From Candidatus Peregrinibacteria bacterium CG10_big_fil_rev_8_21_14_0_10_36_19 (GTDB taxonomy: Bacteria > Patescibacteriota > Gracilibacteria > UBA1369 > LOWO2-01-FULL-3), in NCBI GenBank assembly GCA_002772535.1, contig PFDP01000009.1, positions 1 through 32,048 of the forward strand: a DNA stretch of 32,048 bases. Reading direction: 5' to 3'. The notes under the pieces were generated by a model. The model ran no database searches. It was not told the DNA's origin and was given only the letters and a program-made list of their open reading frames with translations. This document shows positions 12,978-14,637 of the stretch, piece by piece. Both the position numbers and the translations under genes were made by a program. The first letter of the stretch is position 1. The number at the start of each line of letters is the position of its first letter.

Positions 12978-13006
12978 TTGACATATTTCACAAATATACG
13001 TAAAAT
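12978..13006 (+). promoter_or_regulatory. Consensus promoter of the HTH-repeat gene
   Basis: TTGACA (12978-12983), 17-nt spacer, TAAAAT (13001-13006). The predicted start near 13013 gives a 16-nt leader to the ATG at 13029. The apparent TTG start codon at 12978 is the -35 box itself, so that upstream start is rejected. Confidence 0.85.
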
Positions 13007-13028: not shown

Positions 13029-14105
13029 ATGGGACTGGAATCAGACACATCAGAACGTACAGCTTCGCAAATTGCTGCCATTCAAGCCGCTCAGAGATTA
13101 GCTAAACAGCTTATTGAAGAGAGACCGGAAATTGCCAATGACTATAGAAGTGGCCTAAATCAAGAAGAAATAGTCAAGAAATACGGGATTGATGAGTTGG
13201 CCCAGACCGCCCGTGTCGCAAGAACCGCTGTTTGTGAAGCATTGAAAGAACTACTTCCAGATAAAGATGAAAGAGCAAAACTGGCAGAAACAGTGACAAG
13301 GAGAAATGGCCAAGAATGTTTTGAACAAGGCAAAGGCATACACGGAATGGACACTGAAACAAGACGAGCAATATCGTCAAAAGCAGCTCAAGCATTAGTC
13401 AGAGACAAAAAAGGAATGTTTGCCTGGACAGTAGAAGAGTATAGAAAACATGGCGAAAGTCTACGAGAAAGAAGAATCGGCATACATGGCCTCACTACTG
13501 AACAAAGACGCCAAATTGGGAAAACTCTCCATAATGAAAGACGAGGAATTTTCGCACAAACCACGAAAGAATTAAGTGCCAACGGCCGTAAAGCACGAGA
13601 CATGGAAGTCGGAGTGCATGCAATGACCTTCGAAGAACGAAGTGAATTAGCAAGAAGAAACATGGCTGACGGAAAAGGAGTAACTGCCCAAAGTACCGAA
13701 GAATTGAGAGTAATCGGAAAAAGAGTACATCAAGAAGGAAAAGGCATTCACGGACTTACTCACGAAGAGCATGTTGCTCACGGTCAAAAGTCATATGAAA
13801 TGGGAGCCGGAATTCACGGTTTATCCGCAACGGAGAAAAAAGCAGCTTCACAAAAAGCCATCATCTCCAGAGGGCAAATTCCTTGGGAAAATCATATATT
13901 TGACCCGGAAACAGGATTGGACGAACATCATTACTGCCTACAATTGCTATCGGATCCAAAATTTCAAATTCAACGTGGAGACAAAAACCTTACAAATCTA
14001 CAAGCAATTGCAGATGAATTAAACAGAATATTCCACGGAGGCAAAACGGTACGAACAAGAAAAGGTATTTCAATGTTCAAAATCCAAAGAGTTAACAGAG
14101 AATAA
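13029..14105 (+). CDS. Helix-turn-helix protein with eight 22-residue repeats
   Basis: A 358-residue soluble, basic protein. Residues 35-75 look like a helix-turn-helix (N-Q-E-E-I-V-K-K-Y-G-I, then T-A-R-V-A-R-T-A-V-C-E-A-L). Residues 103-282 are eight tandem repeats, the first of 26 and the others of exactly 22 residues, consensus G-[IV]-[HF]-[GA]-x-T-x-E-E-x4-G-x8. Residues 290-358 form a separate C-terminal domain (D-E-H-H-Y-C...I-A-D-E-L-N-R...R-T-R-K-G-I), possibly a second DNA-binding fold. The repeats recall NUMOD-like modules of phage and homing-endonuclease proteins, but I see no nuclease motif. It has its own promoter and stands alone in the accessory stretch. A modular DNA-binding protein is the best guess. 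Confidence 0.7.
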   Translation: MGLESDTSERTASQIAAIQAAQRLAKQLIEERPEIANDYRSGLNQEEIVKKYGIDELAQTARVARTAVCEALKELLPDKDERAKLAETVTRRNGQECFEQGKGIHGMDTETRRAISSKAAQALVRDKKGMFAWTVEEYRKHGESLRERRIGIHGLTTEQRRQIGKTLHNERRGIFAQTTKELSANGRKARDMEVGVHAMTFEERSELARRNMADGKGVTAQSTEELRVIGKRVHQEGKGIHGLTHEEHVAHGQKSYEMGAGIHGLSATEKKAASQKAIISRGQIPWENHIFDPETGLDEHHYCLQLLSDPKFQIQRGDKNLTNLQAIADELNRIFHGGKTVRTRKGISMFKIQRVNRE

Positions 14106-14109
14106 AAAA

Positions 14110-14137
14110 AGAGGCTTTGCTATATAACAAAGCCTCT
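14110..14137 (-). terminator. Strong intrinsic terminator, mainly for the leftward gene
   Basis: Stem of 10 bp (14110-14119 with 14128-14137, AGAGGCTTTG / CAAAGCCTCT) with an 8-nt loop. On the minus strand it is followed by TTTTTTT (complement of the A-run 14103-14110), giving a canonical terminator 17 nt after the stop of the leftward gene at 14155. Rightward transcription from the HTH-repeat gene also meets the hairpin but without a T tract. Confidence 0.85.
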
Positions 14138-14154
14138 CAAATTAAAACATTAAA

Positions 14155-14637
14155 TTACTTAGTATATGAGAACTTCCAAGGTTTTGTAGTCAAAATTTCA
14201 CCCTTCAGCGCATTCCCAAAACGAGACTGAACATACCAGTTAGTATCAACTTGAGTACTTGAAGTCAAAGTTTTCATTTCGTCATTCATAAATCTCCAAT
14301 CAGCACCAGAAAGAGTCCAGTGATTTGAATTAGGAATCACACCTATACAAGCAAACTCTTGCGAATTATTTACATTTTCAAAACACAATTCATATTGAGA
14401 CCAATTATAACTAGAACAACCCGGGCCATTCCATTTAAAGCCTACAGCATCACCATATTTAGCTACTGTTCCAGGATTTGGATCAAAGTTTTCAAGCAAT
14501 ATGTTACATTTTATTGGAGCCTTAGAAAATCTATACAGCCTTCCTTGAAACATCTCCGAATTACCAGCATAAAATACAGTGCCAGCAACCACGACAACCG
14601 CAAGAAAAGCCGATAAAATTTTGTTTTGTTTTTTCAT
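14155..14637 (-). CDS. Membrane-anchored or secreted hypothetical protein
   Basis: A 160-residue protein with an N-terminal signal or anchor (M-K-K-Q-N-K-I-L-S-A-F-L-A-V-V-V-V-A-G). The exported part is beta-rich with many aromatics and four cysteines (K-C-N, G-C-S, L-C-F, A-C-I), and the pattern resembles an Ig- or fibronectin-type sandwich, although I cannot name a family. It is the only leftward gene in the accessory stretch, with its own promoter (14670-14698) and terminator (14110-14137). Its leader shares 15 identical nt with that of the leftward gene starting at position 6. Confidence 0.7.
   Translation of the reverse strand: MKKQNKILSAFLAVVVVAGTVFYAGNSEMFQGRLYRFSKAPIKCNILLENFDPNPGTVAKYGDAVGFKWNGPGCSSYNWSQYELCFENVNNSQEFACIGVIPNSNHWTLSGADWRFMNDEMKTLTSSTQVDTNWYVQSRFGNALKGEILTTKPWKFSYTK

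Follow-up and report, generated by a model that had tools for sequence, protein, structure and literature searches.

An array of KGG-like units between putative DNA-binding domains of a nuclease-less Peregrinibacteria protein, and its relationship to viral GIY-YIG endonucleases

Here we describe P0001, the product of a rare gene in an ultra-small bacterium of Candidatus Peregrinibacteria, in which eight tandem units stand between an HTH-like and a Myb/SANT-like domain. The explanation that we favour, with restrained confidence, is that P0001 is a free-standing, nuclease-less DNA-binding protein whose KGG-like array touches DNA between two DNA-binding domains. Direct support is available for the array, its homologies, a model with one helix per unit, purifying selection and a conserved promoter. 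The gene lies in a window of 32,048 nucleotides (contig PFDP01000009.1), which is the whole stretch of DNA that was analysed. Claims made in an earlier sequence-only reading of this window are taken up where the results bear on them.

Results

The P0001 gene and its surroundings

The gene and its associated features are as follows.

13029..14105, + strand: coding sequence of P0001 (358 aa), with an HTH-like domain, an eight-unit array and a Myb/SANT-like domain
12978..13006, + strand: sigma70-type promoter TTGACA-17-TAAAAT, 11/12 matches, ending 22 nt before the ATG
12983..12997, strand not assigned: palindrome ATATTT-cac-AAATAT in the promoter spacer, a possible operator
14109..14138, - strand: intrinsic-terminator-like hairpin with a 13 bp stem, seen in the sequence

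The consensus promoter reported from the sequence is well founded, since it matches at 11 of 12 positions and is kept in the 78%-identical nearest ortholog despite diverged flanking DNA. Eight out of eight family genes have a sequence resembling a promoter just 5' of them, with 9-12 of 12 positions matching. The start ATG of P0001 is supported because of the ortholog and the sigma70-type promoter 22 nt upstream. The palindrome, perfect in the P0001 gene, is altered at one arm position in the ortholog. Its 19-nt motif has a single exact occurrence genome-wide and near matches in the genome are no commoner than for a reversed control. No regulon sites were found, and an operator with a regulon was rejected on these grounds. 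The hairpin at 14109-14138 serves the convergent gene because the T-run is on the - strand only.

The gene had been described as isolated and in an accessory region. It is indeed accessory, as it or a relative is present in 6 of the 89 genomes of the order, but it lies a little downstream of hrcA-grpE-dnaK. This dnaK neighbourhood was not found at the loci of homologs. No gene neighbourhood is conserved family-wide, with the exception of one neighbour common to the P0001 gene and its nearest ortholog. The - strand gene at 14155-14637, convergent with the P0001 gene, encodes a small protein that has a hydrophobic segment at its N-terminus. A 72% identical counterpart has the same placement beside the ortholog in the nearest genome, and no other genome of the order has the protein at full length. 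The P0001 gene and this neighbour may be moving or being inherited together. PADLOC gave no defence-system match, and a role as a defence system was rejected for this reason.

Structure of the repeat array

The eight units and their predicted helices (residue numbers of P0001) are listed below.

13335..13412, + strand: unit 1 (26 aa), GIHGMDTETRRAISSKAAQALVRDKK, predicted helix 109-125
13413..13478, + strand: unit 2 (22 aa), GMFAWTVEEYRKHGESLRERRI, predicted helix 135-147
13479..13544, + strand: unit 3 (22 aa), GIHGLTTEQRRQIGKTLHNERR, predicted helix 157-169
13545..13610, + strand: unit 4 (22 aa), GIFAQTTKELSANGRKARDMEV, predicted helix 180-191
13611..13676, + strand: unit 5 (22 aa), GVHAMTFEERSELARRNMADGK, predicted helix 201-214
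13677..13742, + strand: unit 6 (22 aa), GVTAQSTEELRVIGKRVHQEGK, predicted helix 223-235
13743..13808, + strand: unit 7 (22 aa), GIHGLTHEEHVAHGQKSYEMGA, predicted helix 245-258
13809..13874, + strand: unit 8 (22 aa), GIHGLSATEKKAASQKAIISRG, predicted helix 267-280

Residues 103-282 consist of one unit of 26 residues followed by seven of 22, exactly as had been read from the sequence. At lag 22 the BLOSUM62 autocorrelation sums to +119, whereas shuffles average -111 (sd 26); the observed value lies 8.9 sd above them and was reached by 0 of 5000 shuffles. Lag 44 gives an equal score. The units begin, in order, with GIHG, GMFA, GIHG, GIFA, GVHA, GVTA, GIHG and GIHG. The alternation of G-I-H-G and G-[IV]-[FT]-A starts that had been proposed therefore holds for units 1-6, as H against F or T, and fails in units 7 and 8, which are both GIHG. 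The T-x-E-E said to recur in a fixed place proves to be less strict, namely [TSD]-x-[EKT]-x. Pairwise identity between units is 14-41% in the protein and 32-58% in the DNA. Because repetition at the DNA level is nearly gone, the array is old rather than a recent expansion. The array is also the most basic part of P0001, with a pI of 10.1 compared with 8.2 for the C-terminal and 5.1 for the N-terminal domain. The C-terminal domain, earlier singled out as separate and basic, is separate but is not where the basic character is greatest.

AlphaFold assigns a single helix to every unit of the array, so that the model has a repeated fold, at low confidence (array pLDDT ~30-60). Seven of the helices begin at unit position 7, directly after the T/S/D at position 6, and one begins at position 8. 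The model gives no verdict on stacked versus separate helices, and folding on binding would be compatible with both helices and disorder. A PDB fold search with the full P0001 model returned nothing significant, as expected because model confidence is low.

No match to a known enzyme family was found over the repeats. A sub-threshold Pfam NosD score (20.5 bits, cut-off 23.6) and a sequence match to PDB 7o0y (E 0.0097), the best hits in Pfam and the PDB, raise the idea that the array folds as a NosD/CASH-type parallel beta-helix. The NosD score probably comes from the common ~22-residue G-I spacing; the predicted array has one helix per unit and no strands, and the homologs have no NosD match. 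The beta-helix, whose probability we regard as close to negligible, was rejected because the array model is helical.

The terminal domains

The array is flanked by two domains.

13056..13328, + strand: N-terminal helical HTH-like domain, residues 10-100, five predicted helices, pLDDT ~90
13875..14102, + strand: C-terminal Myb/SANT-like domain, residues 283-358, predicted helix, beta hairpin, helix, helix

The N-terminal helix-turn-helix of the sequence-only reading is borne out as an HTH-like domain of five predicted helices, the pattern of which is conserved family-wide. One homolog has a weak match to HTH_38 (E 0.004). The domain has no solved relative in the PDB and no Pfam relative of its own. 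PDB 8vd6, a repeat-protein chain matched by the N-terminal profile (E 1.3e-7), was not accepted as a homolog, as the match arises from a single helix-turn motif present in five weak copies. A nuclease remnant at the N-terminus was also rejected; residues 1-102 are all-helical and unrelated to GIY-YIG.

The C-terminal domain is modelled with a core pLDDT of 83-88. Its nearest solved folds are the TEA domain of TEAD4 (E 0.31) and the Myb domain of ZZZ3 (E 5.9), neither of which is significant. Compared with the Myb-type domains of distant homologs it reaches an hhalign probability of 98% (E 1.2e-13), a relation that is not fully independent because four of the six rows of the comparison set, which includes L057, were found with the C-terminal profile. 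Two genuine Pfam Myb domains are present in L057 (E 1.8e-11), which was found via the N-terminal profile. By this transitive argument the C-terminal domain may be classified as Myb/SANT-like. Pfam Myb has no match in P0001 even at E 10, and P0001 stays below the threshold of every Pfam model for HTH, Myb and KGG. As in Myb/SANT and TEA domains there is a conserved W at the start, an IA-x-x-LN helix and an R-rich third helix, and the three modelled helices may form a comparable trihelical fold; unlike them, the C-terminus has a beta hairpin inserted between helices 1 and 2. L057 itself is a Patescibacteria protein, in an open frame from position 1429 (+), and has T-x-E-E-R repeats between its domains.

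Relationship to viral GIY-YIG endonucleases

When searched against phage and CPR proteins the repeat was found in phage GIY-YIG endonucleases. A profile built only on P0001 units finds gp294 of Synechococcus phage B23 with a score of 74 bits (E 1.7e-22), which 0 of 200 shuffles reach. Both gp294 and its relative from S-SRM01 (QPX48056.1) have at their start a GIY-YIG-like region that resembles a Seg-like homing endonuclease, and in PHROGs the viral array family corresponds to homing endonuclease (PHROG 314, E 6.7e-11). IMG/VR contains at least 210 relatives of the array-bearing phage endonucleases, including dozens of uncultivated viruses, and no direct viral relatives of full-length P0001. 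Two to seven units follow the nuclease in the 63 distinct viral GIY-YIG-type proteins examined. A profile of 247 viral units scores P0001 at 96 bits (E 3e-29). Run against 380 Patescibacteria genomes, the viral-endonuclease profile found only the array of P0001 (E 1.4e-15) and that of its ortholog (E 6.8e-17). For a kinship of units read from sequence, this reverse search is the decisive specificity control.

The cyanophage Seg-like endonucleases share with P0001 the tandem 22-residue unit and the order G-[IV]-[HF]-[GAS]-x-[TS]-x-E...G-K-K, and carry their array in the position of the DNA-binding region. Their N-terminal domain is a nuclease and their C-terminal motif a short W-x-C..TG, where P0001 has its HTH-like and Myb/SANT-like domains, respectively. 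The GIY-YIG nuclease domain is absent from P0001, which has no Pfam nuclease match. These comparisons support the modular array without a nuclease domain that had been proposed from the sequence, nucleic-acid binding itself being what we infer. In I-TevI a long linker joins the nuclease to an extended DNA-binding region with a minor-groove helix and an HTH (PMC1564403, PMC2988022). In the viral enzymes this place is occupied by the KGG-like array.

Viral unit spacings of up to 40 residues are 26, 30, 22, 34 or 38, and thus 2 modulo 4 in 164 of 164 cases, which come from related proteins and so are not independent events. It is as if the helices grow by whole turns. In the viral arrays (L071-L149) units come in lengths of 22 + 4n residues, with four-residue insertions of the GKIG type.

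Relationship to KGG and NUMOD3 repeats

The P0001 unit appears to be a KGG-type repeat, distantly related to the motif of stress proteins. Aligned with KGG (PF10685) repeats, the units give an hhalign probability of 95% (E 4e-8), with columns 1-20 on columns 1-20, in register. The family profile scores six of six KGG proteins above all 200 shuffles of each, and in a background control of 199 ORFs the top score is a distant family member itself. A KGG profile of 14 units, drawn from six proteins, is by itself too narrow to detect P0001 (7 bits); it is with the family profile as query, and in the profile-profile comparison, that the relation is seen. Pfam KGG has no match at E 10 in P0001 or in the whole genome. 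In the viral arrays it reaches sub-threshold scores in two of six members, the best E being 0.0019, and one array scores 17 bits where 20.4 are required. The literal K-G-G tripeptide is missing from P0001 and present in its homolog L005 and in 44 of the 63 viral proteins.

Proteins with the KGG motif (GsiB, YciG, YmdF, con-10) share with P0001 a 22-position unit and the T/D-x-E...G-x-K-G-G register, and Gemmobacter KGG units have the same spacing of 22. They are small free-standing stress proteins with few units, whereas in P0001 the tripeptide is lost and a globular domain stands at either end. The enterobacterial KGG proteins have been described as disordered (PMC7161692). Among the papers searched, which included few subscription ones, none was found that names both the KGG domain and GIY-YIG nucleases.

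This homology, together with the position a little downstream of hrcA-grpE-dnaK, would suit a stress protein (hydrophilin) of the KGG/GsiB/YciG kind, in which the DNA-binding ends serve only for nucleoid localisation. We consider such a role very improbable: P0001 has neither a literal KGG nor a Pfam KGG match, its promoter is of the plain sigma70 type, and the dnaK neighbourhood is not common to the homologs.

The earlier suggestion that the units are like the NUMOD modules of phage proteins is apt with regard to position and role but not to homology. NUMOD3 (PF07460) has no match in the genome, its hhalign probability against the P0001 units is 1.6% as opposed to 95% for KGG, and the scores of NUMOD3 proteins do not rise above those of their shuffles. 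NUMOD3 kinship was rejected on this evidence. With no sequence relation found, NUMOD3 offers a works-like analogy: in I-TevI-type endonucleases its modules are short DNA-binding helical elements placed between the nuclease and the C-terminal domain.

Distribution and conservation of the family

The relatives with names belong to Candidatus Peregrinibacteria. In the sample of 380 Patescibacteria genomes, which spans the phylum, the full protein is present in two and one of the end domains in six to seven. Homologs keep the end domains and family members have arrays of 0-8 units, with eight in P0001 and L003, about seven in L004 and L005, about five in L006 and about four in L015; the short paralogs L032 and L031 have 0-1. 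The gene at L006:1492-2685 (-) encodes two copies of the C-terminal domain with a partial unit between them. Compared with the ortholog, dN/dS is ~0.19 overall and 0.24 over the array, which points to purifying selection; the figures are rough because synonymous sites are well diverged. The best-conserved pair among homologs is units 4-5, with up to 15 of 22 residues identical in unit 5.

The main rival to a DNA-contacting array is a flexible, largely disordered basic tether, with the end domains binding two DNA sites and the repeats setting the reach. The low pLDDT of the array and the variable unit number among homologs are both consistent with it. A tether, however, needs no kept unit length, sequence or single-unit conservation. 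The 22-residue length and the sequence are strictly kept, and all 164 phage spacings of up to 40 residues fall on 22, 26, 30, 34 or 38; the array is under purifying selection, and single units, 4-5 above all, are conserved one by one across distant homologs. This alternative is therefore disfavoured, and we regard it as unlikely, if worth serious attention.

One homolog gene (L013:3152-4416) lies exactly between two tRNA-Met genes, and a tRNA gene is found within ~1.2 kb of the family genes L006, L053, L056 and L057. Insertion of family genes linked to tRNA genes is possible. That several family genes adjoin tRNA genes, one of them between two, could also be taken to mean that P0001 binds RNA, for example tRNA or the ribosome; basic helical repeats are also compatible with RNA. 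Both end domains nevertheless resemble DNA-binding types, and in viruses the array is joined to homing endonucleases that act on DNA, which makes binding to RNA rather than DNA quite improbable.

Discussion

Returning to a DNA-binding P0001 with a DNA-contacting array, we infer the binding, the role of the units and the regulation along the following lines. Sequence contacts would come from the N-terminal HTH-like and the C-terminal Myb/SANT-like domains. Each unit would supply one short basic helix with a T/S-x-E cap, and the G-[IV]-[HF]-[GAS] turn would act as a joint. Lying along the DNA, the array could extend the contact, much like the elongated linker and minor-groove helix in GIY-YIG homing endonucleases, and how long the DNA footprint is would be set by the number of units, which ranges from 0 to 8 across the family. 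Because it has no nuclease, P0001 is read as a regulator or DNA-organising protein; its likely role would be that of a transcription regulator or a DNA-organising protein of accessory origin. P0001 might also regulate itself via the palindrome in its own promoter.

What appears new is the link between the unexplained KGG motif of stress proteins, the arrays of phage endonucleases and the nuclease-less P0001. We tentatively propose, as a possibility short of a likelihood, that the KGG motif is a modular nucleic-acid-binding helix, arrayed in up to eight units both on the homing endonucleases of phages and, in Peregrinibacteria and with no nuclease, between HTH-like and Myb/SANT-like domains, with unit number setting the footprint. 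The presence of a KGG-like unit both on phage DNA endonucleases and between domains of DNA-binding type provides a direct and testable hypothesis for the function of the KGG motif. If the arrays bind DNA unit by unit, they would constitute a compact modular DNA-binding scaffold.
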